Origin: Leifsonia xyli subsp. xyli str. CTCB07
GTDB taxonomy: Bacteria; Actinomycetota; Actinomycetes; Actinomycetales; Microbacteriaceae
DNA: 64,000 nucleotides
Direction of reading: 5' to 3'
NCBI RefSeq assembly: GCF_000007665.1
Contig: NC_006087.1
Coordinates: forward strand, 1,240,001-1,304,000
Shown here: piece after piece, positions 45,824-55,545 of the stretch
Layout: each line of letters begins with the position of its first letter
Numbering within the stretch: the stretch's first letter is position 1
Program-made: the position numbers and the translations under genes
Notes under the pieces: model-generated
The model's input: only the letters and a program-made list of their open reading frames with translations
The model's database searches: none
Told to the model about the DNA's origin: nothing

Positions 45824-46618
45824 TCAGCGCGCGCCGCCGATCGGGCGCGCCAGCGCCGCGAACCGCGCTCGCCAGGCCAGGGTGCGCTCGGCGTCGCGTC
45901 CGAGAGCCGGCCCGTCCACCCACGCTGTGACTTCACGAATGCCGTGCAGAGCGTTCACCGCCCAGAGCGCCGCGCCCTCCAGAGCCGCCGGGCACACGGC
46001 CGCTTCGACGACCGGGACGCGCATCGCCGCCGCGATGCCGCGGACGGTCCGGGCCGCCACGCTGTCCACGCGCGCCAGGGAGAGCGGGGGAGCGAACAAC
46101 GTCCCCTCCCGCCACCACAGCAGCGCCGTCGTCACCCCGTCGCACACAGCGCCGTCCGCCAGGATGACCGCCTCCTGCGCGCCGCGCCGCTGCGCCGCCT
46201 GCCGCAGCGCGCCGAGCCGTTCGATGTCGGGCCCTTTGACATCCGGTTCGGTGCGGGGGTCCCCGATCGCCGTCGCGACCACCAGCTCGGCGCCGAGCGG
46301 CGGCGCCGTCCGCAACCGGAACCGGAGCCGCAGCGCCCCGCCCACCCGGGCCAGCTCGAAGCGCGGGAACCAGCCGCCTGCCGCGGGCAGCGTCTCGACC
46401 GCGGCGTCCCAGAAGGCGTTCAGCTCCGGGCCGTCGCGGAACCCCTGCCGTGCCGCGGAGCCGGCGAATCGTTCGCGGTGCAGGCCGAGTGCGAGAGCCC
46501 GTCCCTCCGCCACGAGGAAGGAGTCGGCGACCAGGAGTGCGGTCCTGCCGGTGTCGCCATCGTCACGTGTCACCAGCGCGCCAGCGGACCAATCGAACAT
46601 GATGTCGGTCGCAGCCAT
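45824..46618 (-). CDS. pabC: Class IV aminotransferase, probable aminodeoxychorismate lyase
   Basis: The 264-residue PLP enzyme of the fold-type IV family has the Schiff-base Lys probably in DVKGPDIERLGALRQAAQ (about 125), EAVILADGAVCDGVTTALLWW and the closing VEAAVCPAALEGAALWAVNALHGIREV. It would split aminodeoxychorismate into p-aminobenzoate and pyruvate for folate. The neighbour pabB, transcribed the other way from a shared 17-base gap, supplies the substrate. The ATG at 46618 has TAGCCT ending 7 bases before it and is probably leaderless. Confidence 0.83.
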   Translation of the reverse strand: MAATDIMFDWSAGALVTRDDGDTGRTALLVADSFLVAEGRALALGLHRERFAGSAARQGFRDGPELNAFWDAAVETLPAAGGWFPRFELARVGGALRLRFRLRTAPPLGAELVVATAIGDPRTEPDVKGPDIERLGALRQAAQRRGAQEAVILADGAVCDGVTTALLWWREGTLFAPPLSLARVDSVAARTVRGIAAAMRVPVVEAAVCPAALEGAALWAVNALHGIREVTAWVDGPALGRDAERTLAWRARFAALARPIGGAR

Positions 46619-46635: not shown

Positions 46636-48093
46636 GTGCTCCTCCCACCCCGTGTGCACCACCTCAACGCCCCCGTCGACCCAGCCGACGCCTTCGCAGC
46701 GCTTTACCCCGCAGGCGATGCCGTCTGGCTCGATTCGGGCCCGGACGCCGCAGCGGGCATGAGCGTCATCGGCACCGGGACGCGCGTCGCGACGGCGTCC
46801 GTGGCGGACGGGACGGTGACCGTCGACGGGGAGACCCGCACCGGCAGCATCGTCGAGGTGCTGCGGGCGACCGGTCGCGCGGACACCGCAGGCTACCCGC
46901 TCGGCTGGATCGGCTGGCTCGGCTATGAGGCGGGCGCGGCGGATCTCGGGCTTCCGCACGCGCCGGGCGAGGGACAGGACGCGGCGTTCGTCTGGGCGGA
47001 CCGGCTGATCGTGTTCGATCACGACACCGGGCGGGTGACGCTCGTGGACGCTCGCGACGGCGGGGCGGACCCTGAGCCAGCAGGCGGCGAATCATCGGCG
47101 GGAGGAGCGTCGGACTCCGCACCGGCCTCCTCCGCTCCTCCCTGGCTCCGCGCGACCGCCGCCGCCCTCACCGCTCCGGCCGCCGCCGGCTCGGCCGCGC
47201 GGCACCTCGCGGCCCACCCGCTGCCCGGCCCGCGCGCCCAAGCCGGCTGGCGGTATGGACCGGCGGCCTACCGCGCCCTCCTCGACGCCTGTCAGTCCGC
47301 CATCCACGCCGGGGATGCCTACCAGCTCTGCCTGACGAACACCGCAACCGCCCAGACGTCCGCCGACCCGCTTGCCGTCCACCTGCGGCTGCGCCGGGAA
47401 AGCCCCGCACCCCACGCAGGTTTCCTCCGTATTGGCGGCGAAACCCTCGTCAGCTCGTCGCCCGAGCAGTTTCTCCGGGTCGAGCCCGATGGACGGGTGC
47501 GAACCAAGCCGATCAAGGGCACCCGGCCGCGCGGAACGACGCCCGCCGAGGACCGCCGCCTGCGAGCCGAGCTCGAAGCCAGCGAGAAGGAGCGTGCCGA
47601 GAATGTCATGATCGTGGATCTCATGCGGAACGATCTCGCTCGGGTGTGCGAGACCGGTTCGGTGGAGGTGCGGCACCTTCTCGCCGTCGAGTCGTACGCC
47701 CAGGTCCACCAGCTCGTCAGCACGGTCGAGGGACGCCTCCGCGACGGCCAGGGCGTGCTGGACGCTCTGGCCGCCTGTTTCCCCGCCGGCTCGATGACCG
47801 GTGCGCCGAAACTGAGCGCCATGCGCATCCTGAACCGTCTCGAGCAGGGTCCGCGCGGTGTCTACGCGGGGTGTTTCGGCGCCCTCGCGGCCGACGGTTC
47901 GGCCGACCTCGCGATGGTGATCCGCAGTGTCCAGTTCCGCGGCTCCGTCGCCACCATCGGCTCCGGTGGCGGGATCACCGCGCTTTCGGTGCCCGACGAA
48001 GAGCTCGCGGAGGTCGGCGTGAAGGCGGCGGCGCTCTTGCGTGCGGCTGGCCTGGACGGCGCCGGGAACGGACAGGACCTGCCGAACGTTTAG
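46636..48093 (+). CDS. pabB: Aminodeoxychorismate synthase component I
   Basis: The 485-residue chorismate-utilising enzyme has the family signatures [46 protein letters not shown] and [17 protein letters not shown]. It converts chorismate to 4-amino-4-deoxychorismate with ammonia from a PabA-type glutaminase not in this window. The paired pabC supports folate rather than tryptophan synthesis. A short low-complexity insert (Ser/Ala/Pro-rich, about 145-185) lies between the N-terminal domain and the core. The GTG at 46636 is probably leaderless. Confidence 0.9.
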
Positions 48094-51056: not shown

Positions 51057-51603
51057 GTGAAAGTAAAGAAACAGATCGCGATTCGAAAAGTGCATACGCT
51101 CGGCCCGGAGGGATCGAACCTGGAAGCAGCATCCTGGGAAATGGCTTCAGCATGCGGGCATCGAAGGCAGCGTGGAGCTGCACAACACTGTCGAAGACGC
51201 CGTAGCCGCGCTCGACAACCCGGGCGAAGCAGTCATGGCATGCGCAGCGTACCCCGCGCTTCACAACGTGGTCTTCCAGAACCTCGGCACTCTGACGATC
51301 GTCGACGCCTTCCTCATGCCGACGCACTCGATGATCTCGGCTACCCGTCCGGGCACCGACCCGGATGACATCGTCACCTATGCGGCCCACCCGGCACCGC
51401 AGTCGCTGGTTCCGAAGTCCGCCCAGTGGACGCCCAGCACCAGTAAATCGCAGGCCGCGTCGGACTGCGCAGAAGGGCGCACGGACGCGTGCATCACGAC
51501 ATCGGCGGCGGCCGAGCGATACGGACTGGTCACGATCGAGGACCACGGACCCGTGGATATGCCGTTCACGCTGCACGCGGCCCCGTCATCACGACACAAC
51601 TGA
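51057..51603 (+). pseudogene. BacA-like prephenate decarboxylase/dehydratase-fold gene, frameshifted
   Basis: With one base removed at the AAA of 51139-51141 the gene reads through as 181 residues. VHTLGPEGSNLEAAS opens it, as in prephenate dehydratases. VELHNTVEDAV, ACAAYPALHNVVF, FLMPTHSM, YAAHPAPQSLV and SKSQAASDCAEGRTDACITTSAAAERYGL follow the order of Bacillus BacA (LHDTFE, VPHAY, SHPSPINL, NSTSQAA, ALTNELARQKYGL). BacA decarboxylates prephenate without aromatisation on the way to anticapsin; plain dehydratase activity is the alternative. The GTG at 51057 follows a GGGGGA ribosome site. It heads a four-gene remnant that continues with an unknown protein, an ATP-grasp ligase and an aminotransferase. 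Assignment by remembered motif similarity, no search done. Confidence 0.7.
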
Positions 51604-51632
51604 TATCGACACAGTGAGACGAGGAGAAGAAC

Positions 51633-52910
51633 ATGAGCACAACCCTGGCCTGCATGGTGCGATCCGAGCATGAGGAGCGCGCGGCGCGCATCCGGGAGGA
51701 GATCGTTCCGCTCGTGGACGAGTTCCGACTCCGTCAGACGGCGACCGGCAGCATCGTCGAGCCGGCCGATCACGACGTCGCGCTCCTCACCGCTATCCGG
51801 GACGCCGTCGCCGAGACGTACCGCGACATGGGCCGCGAGGATAAGGCGGATGCTTTCAGCGCGGACGTCGACGACTGGCTCGCGCACAGCCTGGACGCGA
51901 AGCCGCACTTCGACCGGGTGCGCGATGCGTTCCGTCGAGTCGGAAACGGGGAGAGCGCCCTCTTCGTCGGCGTGACCCGCGCGACCAACAGCACGACGCC
52001 TTCCGGTGTGCGCCTGGAGCTCTTCTTCGTGCAGCACCATCAGTCGCAGCTGCTCGTCGCTGTCGAGGAGAAGTACCCTCATCAGAACGACGTGCATATG
52101 GACGTCATCCTGCTCGCCGGCCCGGAGGGCTTCGCACTCGGGAACTGCCTGGTATTCTTCCCCGAGAGCGTCGCCGCCCTCAACAAGATCGAGCGCCAGC
52201 ACTACGCCGTGTTCTTCTTCAGCAAGTTCTATGACATCCACGGGACGATCACAGCAGAGAACGCCAACAGCCTTCTCGCTCCCGGTCAGGGGCTGGACAG
52301 CTCCGCTCGGCTCGACCCGTACCTCAGCTACCAGGTCCGCAGCCTCTGGGGATACCTCCACGACCGCGTCCACGCCCACTTCACGGGGCCTTGGTCGATG
52401 GCCGACAACGCTGTCCTGAAGATGCACTGGTACATCGGCGTCCTCGAGGAGATCAAAGTGGACGTCAAGCTCATTCTCATGGCCCGCAACGGCGACGTCC
52501 CCTTCATCGATGAGCTGTTCACGATGATCGTCCTGGAGCGCATCTTCCGATACCCCCTCGAGCCGCGACCCGAGAGGAACTTCGACGCGGGAACCGGCTT
52601 CTTCCTGTTCTCGTACCTGTTGGAGAAGGAAGCGCTCCGCCTTGAGGACGGGCTGGTCGCGATCGACCAGGGGTGCGCGATCGACGCTCTCGAGACGCTC
52701 GTGGCCGAGATCGAGGCGCTCGAGCACCGCTCCACGACCCCGGACGAGTACCGGGCGAACGCCACGCAGATGGTGCGGCGCCACCTGGCTGAGGGCGAGG
52801 ACCCGAAGGACAAGTTCGCACTGAACCAGGAGCAGCGCCTTTTGCGCACGCATGTCGAGCTGTTCGAAGAGCGGCCGCCGCTGGCCTTCTCCGAACTGGC
52901 CGCAGCGTGA
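51633..52910 (+). CDS. Unrecognised 425-residue protein in the BacA-like/ATP-grasp cluster
   Basis: I do not recognise this family. The product is soluble, with no signal peptide or membrane segment, and acidic. Conspicuous conserved-looking stretches are VRLELFFVQHHQSQLLVAVEEKYPH, DVHMDVILLAGPEGFALG, VFFFSKFYDIHGTI, SLWGYLHDRVHAHFTGPWS and LKMHWYIGVLEEIKVD. The clustered His residues in HDRVHAHFTGPW and KMHWYIG, with Glu nearby, could form a metal site, but this is only a guess. It is the sole intact gene of the remnant, with AGACGAGGAGAAG before ATG 51633, and its stop overlaps the ATP-grasp start (GTGA). That coupling argues for a step in the same pathway. Confidence 0.8.
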   Translation: MSTTLACMVRSEHEERAARIREEIVPLVDEFRLRQTATGSIVEPADHDVALLTAIRDAVAETYRDMGREDKADAFSADVDDWLAHSLDAKPHFDRVRDAFRRVGNGESALFVGVTRATNSTTPSGVRLELFFVQHHQSQLLVAVEEKYPHQNDVHMDVILLAGPEGFALGNCLVFFPESVAALNKIERQHYAVFFFSKFYDIHGTITAENANSLLAPGQGLDSSARLDPYLSYQVRSLWGYLHDRVHAHFTGPWSMADNAVLKMHWYIGVLEEIKVDVKLILMARNGDVPFIDELFTMIVLERIFRYPLEPRPERNFDAGTGFFLFSYLLEKEALRLEDGLVAIDQGCAIDALETLVAEIEALEHRSTTPDEYRANATQMVRRHLAEGEDPKDKFALNQEQRLLRTHVELFEERPPLAFSELAAA

Positions 52911-54179
52911 GCGGCCGCCGCGCCCACGGCGAGGTTGTCGTCCTCGTGCATCCGCGGCGTCAGCTGGATGACGCCGTCAGGAGCGCGGAACATGCGGGCG
53001 TCGGCCTGGTCATCGTGTCCCGGGCCGAGGAAGTGGACCTGTGGCGCGCTGGCGAGCCCGGCCCGATCGCCGGGGTTGAGGTCTGGTCGAATGGTCCCGA
53101 GGACGCGGGGTTCGCCGATTTCCTCGTGGCGGTGATCGAGCGGTACAGTGCCCAGGGTATCCTCGGAGTCCACGAGGCTTCTCTGCTCGCTGTGAACGAG
53201 GCGGCTGCACGGTGCGGGCTGATCGGGCTCGATTCCGCTGTCATCGCTCGTCTTCGAGACAAGGGGGCGACCAGGGTGGCGCTGGCCGAGAACGGGCTGC
53301 CGGTTCCGGGGTTTGTCTCGGGTCCCGTCGATGAGCGCCTGCTCCGTGCGGCGCGAGAGCTGCGGCTTCCCGTCGTCGTCAAGCCGTCCAGAGGCTTCTC
53401 CAGCGCGGGAGTCCAGAGGGTCGACCGATACGAGCAGCTCGCCGACGCCAGCCAGCGCGCGGTCGCGGCGATGCTGGACGTGGGCGTACACACACGGGAC
53501 GTCGTCATCGAGGAGTACGTCGGAGGTCCCGAGTACGCGGTGGAGTCGATATCGTTCGGCGGTCACATCCGCGTTCTCACGGTCGGTTACAAGGGCAATT
53601 CCGAACGATCGTAAGGACCGTACTTCGAGGAGTCCATATACCAGGTTCCCTCCGGGCTGACGGAAGACCAGGAGGATCAGGTCCGCCGGACGGTCGAGAG
53701 GGCGCATCGTGCTCTGGACGTGGAGAATGGGCCGACGCACACGGAGCTCCGGCTCGACTCCGACGGCGTCCCGTACATCCTGGAGATCGGCGCACGGGTC
53801 GGCGGCTCTGGAGTGTCGCACGCCATCGTCGAGTCCGCGACGGGCGTGGACTTCTTCGCCGAGGCGTTCGCTGTGGCGCTCGGACGCCGCCCAGGCTCGT
53901 TCGGAGCCCCGGCGCCCGGGTATGTGAACGCTGCGGGGAACTACATCAGTCCCCTGCCGCGGAAGCGGCGTAATCCGCGAGATCCGCGGTCTTGAGAAGC
54001 TTAGGGGGCATCCCTCGGTGATCTCGGTGATTCAGATGATGCACCCCGGCGACGTTGTGCGGCCGTATCCGGATTTCACCGGGTACCCCGCCTTCGTCCT
54101 CTCGGCGCACGCCGCCTACGAGGAGCTGATCGGGTTCCATGAGCTGCTGGACCGGGAGATCGAGGTGGTCTACGAATGA
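52907..54179 (+). pseudogene. ATP-grasp ligase (BacD-like amino-acid ligase type), nonsense and frameshift mutations
   Basis: Removing two lesions restores a 423-codon gene. An in-frame TAA at 53612-53614 interrupts GYKGNSERS-x-GPYFEESIYQVP, and an extra A at about 53963-53964 shifts the frame before SGVIREIRGLEKL. Recognisable ATP-grasp parts: DKGATRVALAENGLPVPGF (central domain entry), LPVVVKPSRGFSSAGV (ATP-binding Lys), VVIEEYVGGPEYAVESIS, and HTELRLDSDGVPYILEIGARVGGSG (metal-binding acidic residues), then the C-terminal MMHPGDVVRPYPDFTGYP. The layout is that of carboxylate-amine ligases that join amino acids, as BacD does for bacilysin. Start overlaps the 425-residue gene and stop overlaps the aminotransferase ATG. 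Confidence 0.85.
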
Positions 54180-54420
54180 TCCCCATTACCGAGGTGTGGG
54201 TCGACGGGAGGATCGTCCCGCGCGAGGAGGGCGTCCTTCCGGTCATGACGCATGCGCTTCACTACGCCGGAGCCGTGTACGAGGGCATAAGGGCCTATGA
54301 CGGCGTGCCGTTCGAGCTCCAACGGCACGCTGAACGGCTCGCTGCGTCCGCTGCGCACCTGAGGTTCAAGCTCCCCCTGAGTGTGGAACTGATCTGCGAG
54401 GAGACGAGAGACTACCTAGG
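54176..54420 (+). pseudogene. Class IV (branched-chain type) aminotransferase, truncated by IS element
   Basis: The first ~81 residues of a branched-chain-type aminotransferase remain: ITEVWVDGRIVPREEGVLPVMTHALHYAGAVYEGIRAYDG, then LQRHAERLAASAAHLRF. The catalytic Lys region and the rest are missing. The frame runs into the left end of the insertion sequence, giving a short chimeric tail before a stop at 54458-54460. Sequence on the far side of the element (from 55531) is the rpsB leader and not the missing part, so a deletion accompanied or followed the insertion. ATG overlaps the stop of the ATP-grasp gene. It may have supplied the amino group to the pathway product. Confidence 0.88.
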
Positions 54421-54442
54421 TGTGATGTCCAGGGGGGTTGTT
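54421..54442 (+). repeat. Left inverted repeat of the IS481-family element
   Basis: It begins TGTGATGTCCAGGG and continues GGGTTGTT; it matches the right end at 21 of 22 positions. Confidence 0.9.
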
Positions 54443-54536
54443 TCGGCGATACGGTCGTGAGGAGTTGAGGGGCGAGGGCCTCCGGTTGTGAAGTGGAGCT
54501 GTTCAGTTCAACCGCTTCACGATCCAGGAGGCCTTC

Positions 54537-55535
54537 GTGTCCCACGTTAACGCTGCTCTCACACCGCGCGCTCGTCTGCGCCTTGCCAGGCTCATCGTCG
54601 AGGACCATTGGCTGGTCTCCGTCGCAGCGAAGATGTTTATGGTCTCGCCCGTTACCGCGCGGAAATGGGCGGCGAGGTTCCGCGCCGAAGGCACGGGAGG
54701 GATGACCGACCGGTCTAGCCGCCCACGATCGATGCCAACGCGGACGCCGTTGCCCGTGCTCAAGCGGATCGTGCGGGCGAGGTGGCGACGACGCCTGGGG
54801 CCGGTGCAGATCGCCGGCGAGCTTGGCCTTCCCGCCTCGACCGTCCACGCCGTCCTGGTGTGCTGCCGCATCAACCGGCTCTGCACCATTGATCGGGTCA
54901 CGGGCGAGCCGATCCGTCGCTACGAGCACGACCACCCTGGATCGCTGATCCATGTCGACGTGACGAAGTTCGGCAACATCCCCAACGGCGGCGGCTGACG
55001 ATTCGTCGGCCGCGTCCAGGGCGAACGCAACCGGGAAGCGACCGCCACCCGCACGAAGAGCAGGAACCACCGCTACGAGCCACGGTTGGGCACCGTGTTC
55101 GTCTACACGATCATCGACGACCACTCCCGCGTCGCCTACGCCGAGATCTGCTCCGACGAGAAGGCGGACACCGCGATCGGTGTCCTGCGGCGTGCTGTCG
55201 CCTGGTTCGCCGACCGGGATGTCAGCGTCGAACTCGTCCTCTCGGACAACGGCTCCGCCTACAAGTCCTACGCCTGGCGAGACGCCTGCACAGAGCTCGG
55301 GATCAGGGCGAAGAAGACCCGACCATACCGACCACAGACCAACGGGAAGATCGAACGCTTCCACCGCACACTCGCCGACGGCTGGGCCTACGCCCGGTTC
55401 TATGGTTCAGAGGCCGAACGACGAGAAGCACTCCCCGGCTGGCCCCACTTCTACAATCATCACCAGCACCACTCCGCCATCAGAGCCCCACCCATTAGCA
55501 GAATCGACAACAACCTCCCTGGACATCACACCTAG
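54537..55535 (+). pseudogene. IS481-family transposase, interrupted by one stop codon
   Basis: The open frame would be 332 residues if TGA at 54996-54998 (in GGG-stop-RFVGRVQGE, normally Trp) were sense. The N-terminal helix-turn-helix (RLARLIVEDHWLVSVAAKMFMVSPVTARKW) precedes the rve-type catalytic core: first Asp in HVDVTKF, second in LSDNGSAYKS, Glu in TNGKIERFHRTLADGW. A GGAGG site precedes GTG 54537. The C-terminus (NLPGHHT) is encoded by the right repeat and ends on the TAG of the flanking CCTAG. The part after the stop still reads well, so the mutation looks recent. Confidence 0.88.
55509..55530 (-). repeat. Right inverted repeat of the IS481-family element
   Basis: On the minus strand it begins TGTGATGTCCAGGG and continues AGGTTGTT. 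It also encodes the last residues of the transposase. Confidence 0.9.
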
Positions 55536-55545
55536 CGACGGTTCC

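Follow-up and report, generated by a model that had tools for sequence, protein, structure and literature searches.

Remains of a bacilysin-like operon in Leifsonia xyli subsp. xyli, and the pairing of BacA-like and DUF6421 genes in its intact relatives

Leifsonia xyli subsp. xyli is a pathogen of sugarcane. A stretch of 64,000 nucleotides from strain CTCB07 (NC_006087.1, positions 1,240,001 to 1,304,000, forward strand; hereafter the window), part of a single contig of 2,584,158 bases, carries at 51057-54430 (+) the remains of four genes encoding, in this order, a BacA-like protein of the prephenate dehydratase (PDT) fold, a DUF6421 protein, an ATP-grasp ligase and a class IV aminotransferase. 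The pieces were located by tblastn with the intact proteins of Plantibacter sp. ME-Dv--P-122b (BacA-like, P0059; ligase, P0060; aminotransferase, P0061; DUF6421, P0064) and are collected in Table 1. Since the Plantibacter proteins match every piece, at 54-70% identity and with the order kept, the set is beyond chance.

Table 1. Remains of the operon and the insertion sequence copies associated with it. Positions are those of the window unless prefixed G000:C1 (genome coordinates).
Feature	Position	Strand	Evidence
BacA-like (PDT-fold) protein, piece 1, up to the frame change	51057..51152	+	P0059 residues 35-57 at 51081-51149, 70% identity
BacA-like protein, piece 2, other frame	51172..51603	+	P0059 residues 54-205 at 51139-51594, 62.5% identity
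DUF6421 protein, relative of PolE-type Fe/pterin-dependent oxidases, 425 aa, open frame	51633..52910	+	Plantibacter residues 2-419 matched, 69%
HDxxH metal-motif region with two-residue insertion	52359..52379	+	alignment A1, 27 proteins; also in record P0002
ATP-grasp L-amino acid ligase, piece 1, ends at in-frame stop 53612-53614	52907..53614	+	ATP-grasp_4, E 1.2e-10
Ligase, continuation past the stop	53615..53995	+	P0060 residues 8-345 at 52931-53956, 54%
Ligase, last piece, other frame, L-amino acid ligase C-terminal domain	53937..54179	+	P0060 residues 339-417 at 53937-54173, 61%
Class IV (branched-chain type) aminotransferase, first ~80-85 residues, cut by the insertion sequence	54176..54419	+	PF01063, E 1.7e-7; P0061 residues 1-85 at 54176-54430, 55% identity (tblastn)
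IS481-family element, 1121-bp repeated unit, CTAG target	54416..55536	+	LZ_Tnp_IS481 and rve domains
Rest of aminotransferase, residues 78-281, two overlapping pieces in different frames	G000:C1:1531582-1532197	-	genome searched with the Plantibacter aminotransferase
Second ATP-grasp protein, residues 1-115, one stop	G000:C1:1531227-1531592		only match in the genome
Second copy of the insertion sequence	G000:C1:1532184-1533304	-	1119 of 1121 bases identical (2 mismatches)

A reading made from the sequence alone had described a decayed cluster of four genes running in one direction, and the genes, their order and their decay were all found. The frameshift that it had placed in the BacA-like gene is seen as two pieces in different frames, while the nonsense codon and frameshift that it had given the ligase correspond to the single in-frame stop and to a frame change near 53937-53956. 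It had counted three broken genes among the four and those three are damaged, but the DUF6421 gene may be damaged too, despite its open frame, as the two extra residues inside its HDxxH motif are absent from the other 26 proteins of the alignment. Truncation of the aminotransferase by an insertion sequence (IS) was likewise described; the IS does cut the gene, but the gene is split rather than merely truncated, with its remainder elsewhere in the genome. The operon in the window can no longer work as a pathway. Base composition showed no sharp boundary around the cluster, and a search for a plasmid copy of this stretch returned one 143-bp match only.

The separated remains adjoin the second IS copy, which lies ~237 kb from the first and in the opposite orientation. 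Just beyond the rest of the aminotransferase lies the remnant of a second ATP-grasp gene, covering roughly its first 95-115 residues, and the cluster was therefore once longer: the aminotransferase gene was split by a rearrangement, and a fifth gene started there. The repeated unit starts with CTAG in both copies and, with its IS481 leucine zipper and rve domains and a CTAG-type target, the element belongs to the IS481 family. The IS481 element ISLxc2 has been described with the target NCTAGN, and ISLxx4 as the nearest L. xyli subsp. xyli element (PMC2516522). The simplest account is that the IS inserted into the aminotransferase gene and that an inversion would then have taken place between the two inverted copies.

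The ATP-grasp remnant is adjoined by a comEA-like piece (named by eye), which is followed by a competence protein of the comEC type (PF03772). The comEA-like gene comes after the end of leuS in three other genomes of the genus, and the cluster proteins were unmatched in the stretch examined there; the most likely insertion site of the operon is therefore between leuS and comEA. The start of the comEA-like gene itself (L103:9155-9358; G000:C1:1531155-1531358, -), which adjoins the open comEC-type frame, was apparently lost at the insertion of the cluster. The DUF6421 subfamily was present in only one of the 28 genomes of the genus, the present one, with weak matches (26-27% identity) in three others, and just two of 398 genomes of the family matched at E 1e-20, namely this genome and Plantibacter. 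Just upstream of leuS, the window also holds aminodeoxychorismate lyase-like (45824-46618, -) and synthase-like (46636-48093, +) genes of the para-aminobenzoic acid pathway, which were identified by eye only and are probably unrelated housekeeping genes.

The Plantibacter genome carries an intact run of six genes, encoding the BacA-like protein, DUF6421, the ligase, the class IV aminotransferase, a second ATP-grasp protein and a major facilitator superfamily (MFS) transporter. The MFS exporter was searched for in the window and in the separated stretch (L103) and had no match in either. The sequence-only reading had suggested looking for the four genes together in other genomes, and this was done with 43 DUF6421 loci taken from 88 stretches that matched two peptide patterns from close relatives (one genome per species, one subfamily sampled), with flanks of up to 10 kb. 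By tblastn the BacA-like gene was found in 42 of these loci, the aminotransferase in 32, the ligase in 17 and all four genes in 15, so that the predicted co-occurrence was confirmed, with the order kept in Plantibacter. The locus lacking a BacA-like match (L039) is a contig of 3.3 kb. In 36 of the 42 the BacA-like gene is on the same strand and within 300 bp upstream of DUF6421. The 15 loci with all four genes are all actinobacterial, and the four kinds of gene also occur together on a Pseudoalteromonas plasmid. The pair was found, too, in Paenibacillus, Staphylococcus, Paracidovorax, Thiomicrorhabdus and the cyanobacterium Dolichospermum.

Several arrangements recur. Thirteen loci have the BacA-like gene, DUF6421, EamA, ligase and aminotransferase (in another order in L033), and one more lacks only the aminotransferase; 15 have the BacA-like gene, DUF6421, SnoaL, aminotransferase and AzlC, again with one more lacking only the aminotransferase. 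The Plantibacter type comprises two loci, Plantibacter itself (L005) and Glycomyces sambucus (L023), the latter with an extra ligase-like gene and an MFS match. Amino-acid exporters of the EamA, AzlC and LysE families accompany many clusters, the AzlC type being present in 16 of the 43 loci. In four Paenibacillus loci genes intervene between the BacA-like gene and DUF6421; in one of these (L042) a class I/II aminotransferase gene and genes for ABC transporters are among them, and a carrier protein and an AMP-binding enzyme are encoded downstream of DUF6421. In Streptomyces philanthi, an insect symbiont, the cluster aminotransferase (L035:11685-12512) matches in three separate pieces, and the pathway may be decaying there too. 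In Staphylococcus arlettae a flavin adenine dinucleotide (FAD) monooxygenase with a squalene epoxidase match (L043:12079-13209), a possible further ring-oxidising enzyme, is encoded near EamA, the ligase, the BacA-like gene and DUF6421.

DUF6421 was also matched in ten plasmid records. The BacA-like gene precedes it in Pantoea sp. SS70, Pseudoalteromonas and Serpentinimonas, the Staphylococcus xylosus record starts at DUF6421 with the upstream gene outside the record, the Pantoea sp. X85 plasmid has matches to both side by side, and the remaining five DUF6421 matches are at 24-30% identity. Location on plasmids in Pantoea, Pseudoalteromonas, Serpentinimonas and Staphylococcus (L055-L058) suggests mobility of this type of DUF6421. 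The Pseudoalteromonas cluster ends with a 3-deoxy-D-arabino-heptulosonate 7-phosphate (DAHP) synthase/chorismate mutase, which is consistent with prephenate as a precursor.

As a control, the DUF6421 profile PF19985 was found in 22 of 396 Actinomycetota genomes, at 26 places. Twenty-two of these are ordinary DUF6421 genes that match most of the profile, and no BacA-like gene was found in their flanks of at most 1.5 kb (shorter for L095, which lies at the end of a contig). The remaining four are the window, the only one of the four with a BacA-like gene, two pieces of the broken ordinary copy in the L. xyli genome itself, and one divergent, partial match (L101) that resisted classification. A BacA-like gene within 1.5 kb was seen in 37 of 43 subfamily loci versus 0 of 22 ordinary loci (Fisher P 3e-12, uncorrected for relatedness), and the association therefore belongs to the subfamily and not to DUF6421 at large.

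The 425-residue protein had been left unrecognised by the sequence-only reading. The frame is indeed open over 425 residues, but the protein is recognisable as DUF6421 (PF19985, 60.9 bits against a cut-off of 25; Plantibacter relative, 78.9 bits). Ordinary members score about 588-822 bits on this profile, and the two proteins therefore represent a divergent subfamily. The broken ordinary copy in the L. xyli genome is a second DUF6421 gene in two pieces (431.7 and 345.7 bits; L098 and L100) at G000:C1:2414853-2416161 (-). A structural model of the intact relative (predicted local distance difference test score, 95.1) had PolE entries as all its best PDB matches, and by this model the protein shares the PolE fold. 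Identity between the subfamily and PolE is 20-22%, and the metal residues align. PolE is described as an Fe- and tetrahydrobiopterin-dependent desaturase specific for L-Ile in polyoxin biosynthesis, with the metal motif HE/DxxHX(21-23)E, and many DUF6421 members are said to adjoin amino-acid-modifying enzymes (PMC12614342, 2025). In an alignment of 53 proteins the two His, the Asp and the following Glu pair are invariant columns; the motif spacing is 22 in Plantibacter and 24 in the window copy.

The relationship of the BacA-like protein to BacA and to prephenate dehydratases was studied with an alignment and tree of 15 BacA-like proteins, including TdaC of the tropodithietic acid system, four BacA proteins and six dehydratases, one of which (L049, badly cut) was dropped in a second run. 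Two of the BacA references adjoin a BacD over the curated score, and two adjoin BacD relatives under it (656-689 versus 850 bits). The branch parting the BacA-like proteins, with TdaC, from BacA and the dehydratases had a support of 0.91, or 0.58 with L049 kept. Identity of the Plantibacter protein is 42-65% with other members of the group and falls to 25-28% with BacA (best E 3e-10) and to 22-23% with four dehydratases (E 4e-5 to 3e-4), the fifth giving a short match only. The TRF motif, which is needed for dehydratase activity, was present in all five usable dehydratases of the aligned set and in none of the 15 BacA-like or four BacA proteins, and the C terminus of the BacA-like proteins is of the PMx[FW][ST] type common to BacA. 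The Plantibacter protein lacks the second (ACT) domain and scores 19.6 bits on PF00800 against a cut-off of 25.2; the window piece is similarly weak (E 0.0017, 18.7 bits), and ten of 17 family members match PF00800 at E 0.01. The ordinary prephenate dehydratase of the L. xyli genome is located elsewhere. The missing TRF motif and ACT domain, the PF00800 score below the cut-off and the separate genomic dehydratase make it unlikely that the BacA-like protein is itself an ordinary prephenate dehydratase, although this holds less surely for the family as a whole. The sequence-only reading had named two results that would refute it, an ordinary dehydratase in every relative and a lack of joint occurrence of the four genes elsewhere, and neither was obtained. 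Sequence searches linked no solved structure to the family, unrelated chains at E 0.24 or worse being all that two of the three gave. Many Streptomyces members are named 'bacilysin biosynthesis protein BacA' in databases, which we take to be automatic naming.

Both the window ligase and the Plantibacter ligase have ATP-grasp domains, consistent with an assignment as putative dipeptide ligases. The L-amino acid ligase C-terminal domain (LAL_C2, PF18603) falls just under its cut-off of 29.4 bits in both (28.6-28.7 bits; 28.7 bits and E 1.6e-6 for the last window piece). With 31.7 bits against a cut-off of 850, the ligase is not a BacD orthologue.

Beyond the gene content, order, co-occurrence, decay and split, and the fold and metal motif of the intact relatives, all obtained by computation, we infer the substrate, the order of steps and the product of the intact pathway. 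The most likely interpretation of these data, to which we give a probability of roughly 0.6, is that the window holds a dead, horizontally acquired operon of at least five genes whose intact form works on prephenate. The BacA-like protein would decarboxylate prephenate while leaving the ring non-aromatic, and the resulting hydroxycyclohexadienyl pyruvate would be converted by the aminotransferase to a ring-reduced amino acid. The DUF6421 protein, with Fe(II), a reduced pterin and O2, would then oxidise this amino acid by desaturation, hydroxylation or epoxidation, a step that would replace those of BacB, BacG and BacC in bacilysin. BacB was found nowhere among the 50 targets searched and BacC/BacG only at a distance in four, and ring oxidation is therefore left to DUF6421. 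The ligases would join the oxidised amino acid to other amino acids and the transporter would export the product, presumably a cyclohexenyl or cyclohexadienyl amino acid or its dipeptide.

Several observations weigh against this interpretation. The identity to BacA is low, and the BacA-like group includes TdaC, which is found without DUF6421 beside it and whose role is described as obscure (PMC7497051); its presence leaves prephenate decarboxylation by the BacA-like proteins not assured. Among plasmid records, 73 match the BacA-like family, 58 of them from Phaeobacter, while none of the ten matching DUF6421 is from that genus. Some clusters have no ligase or no class IV aminotransferase, seven of the 43 loci consist of the pair only, and in Paenibacillus their place is taken by a class I/II aminotransferase and a carrier protein. 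A tblastn search of the other loci with the Pseudoalteromonas DAHP synthase/chorismate mutase as sole query found no second case of prephenate supply. Some family members, moreover, carry PF00800 in precomputed annotation. It could be that the BacA-like protein aromatises, in the manner of TdaC or a dehydratase, so that a phenylalanine-type amino acid is made and DUF6421 is an aromatic amino acid hydroxylase like the classical Fe/pterin enzymes. This annotation would fit such a scheme, as would the suggestion that TdaC, a member of the same group, supplies phenylpyruvate (PMC7497051), but the 15 aligned members all lack the TRF essential in dehydratases and an ordinary dehydratase is already encoded in the genome, and we regard aromatisation as a minority possibility.

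The L-Ile specificity reported for PolE (PMC12614342) also counts against oxidation of a prephenate-derived ring, as does the aminotransferase being nearest to branched-chain transaminases, which makes a branched-chain substrate possible. DUF6421 might thus keep the chemistry of PolE on a branched-chain amino acid, in a pathway that does not involve prephenate and in which the substrate of the BacA-like protein is an unrelated keto acid or an intermediate further along the route. The AzlC family comprises branched-chain amino-acid exporters, and the AzlC-type genes of the subfamily loci agree with this. Note, however, that the Pseudoalteromonas cluster has its DAHP synthase/chorismate mutase, that specificity need not be shared at 20-22% identity to PolE and that no PDT-fold protein is known to act on branched-chain compounds, so a pathway of this kind appears improbable. 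It is very hard to believe that unrelated remnants came together by chance: decay of the region, and the failure to find the subfamily in the genus outside this genome (27 others searched), would suit such an origin, but the intact order in Plantibacter and the 15 loci with all four genes refute it. The description as a dead bacilysin-like cluster is supported.

The intact relatives are of more interest than the wreck, for their conserved pairing of a BacA-like protein with a relative of Fe/pterin oxidases. No description of this pairing was found in the literature searched, which did not extend to the supplement of PMC12614342, where it may be mentioned. One DUF6421 subfamily is tied to one partner, which points to substrates and can be tested with intact genes of other species, and TdaC, an enzyme of obscure role, is linked to the BacA-like group. 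More tentatively, the pair could be the core of widespread prephenate-derived amino-acid pathways that cross phyla, one Fe/pterin/O2 enzyme doing the ring oxidation of BacB, BacG and BacC, and might even explain the anticapsin of Streptomyces griseoplanus. If this is true, the versions with ligases would make bacilysin-like dipeptides and those with AzlC or LysE would export the free amino acid, and Fe/pterin enzymes would be seen to do more than hydroxylate aromatic compounds and desaturate Ile. The genome also shows how an IS and a rearrangement dismantled a pathway that this host-restricted plant bacterium had acquired.

The closest known system is the bacilysin cluster of Bacillus (bacABCDEFG), in which the first enzyme is likewise a short protein of the PDT fold that lacks TRF, alongside an aminotransferase, a dipeptide ligase of the ATP-grasp type and an exporter, and whose logic, from prephenate through an unusual amino acid to a dipeptide, is likely shared. 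The resemblance noted in the sequence-only reading is real, but it is partial: BacA groups apart, being 25-28% identical to the Plantibacter protein, the aminotransferase here is of class IV whereas BacF is of fold type I (PMC9147277), and the clusters contain a DUF6421 oxidase. In bacilysin the ring steps are divided among BacB, BacG and BacC (PMC9147277). Two BacB queries (E 1e-4) gave no match in the 50 targets, comprising the window, the separated stretch, the 43 loci and five plasmid loci, and BacC/BacG queries matched in just four, 2.5 kb or more from the core; membership of the true bacilysin clusters was rejected on this basis. A short-chain dehydrogenase/reductase annotated beside DUF6421 in the Pantoea plasmid, on the opposite strand, was unmatched by the BacC/BacG queries.

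TdaC of Phaeobacter lies within the BacA-like group, with 42% identity to the Plantibacter protein, but the Phaeobacter gallaeciensis record annotates no DUF6421, ligase or aminotransferase within 2 kb of it (plasmid gene, L059:1953-2555). PolE also differs in its surroundings, its described partner being PolF (DUF6202) (PMC12614342), whereas the partner of the present subfamily is the BacA-like gene. Prephenate-derived peptides of cyanobacteria are treated in PMC10157211. Anticapsin, the warhead of bacilysin, is also reported as a product of Streptomyces griseoplanus in free amino acid form (PMC9272926). Clusters of the AzlC type in Streptomyces seem suited to exporting a free amino acid, and a link between the two is our guess. 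As for the ligase, among solved structures the intact Plantibacter protein is nearest in sequence to the L-amino acid ligase BL00235 (3vot), with residues 76-417 aligned to 71-415 of that enzyme, most of its length, at E 6.2e-78.

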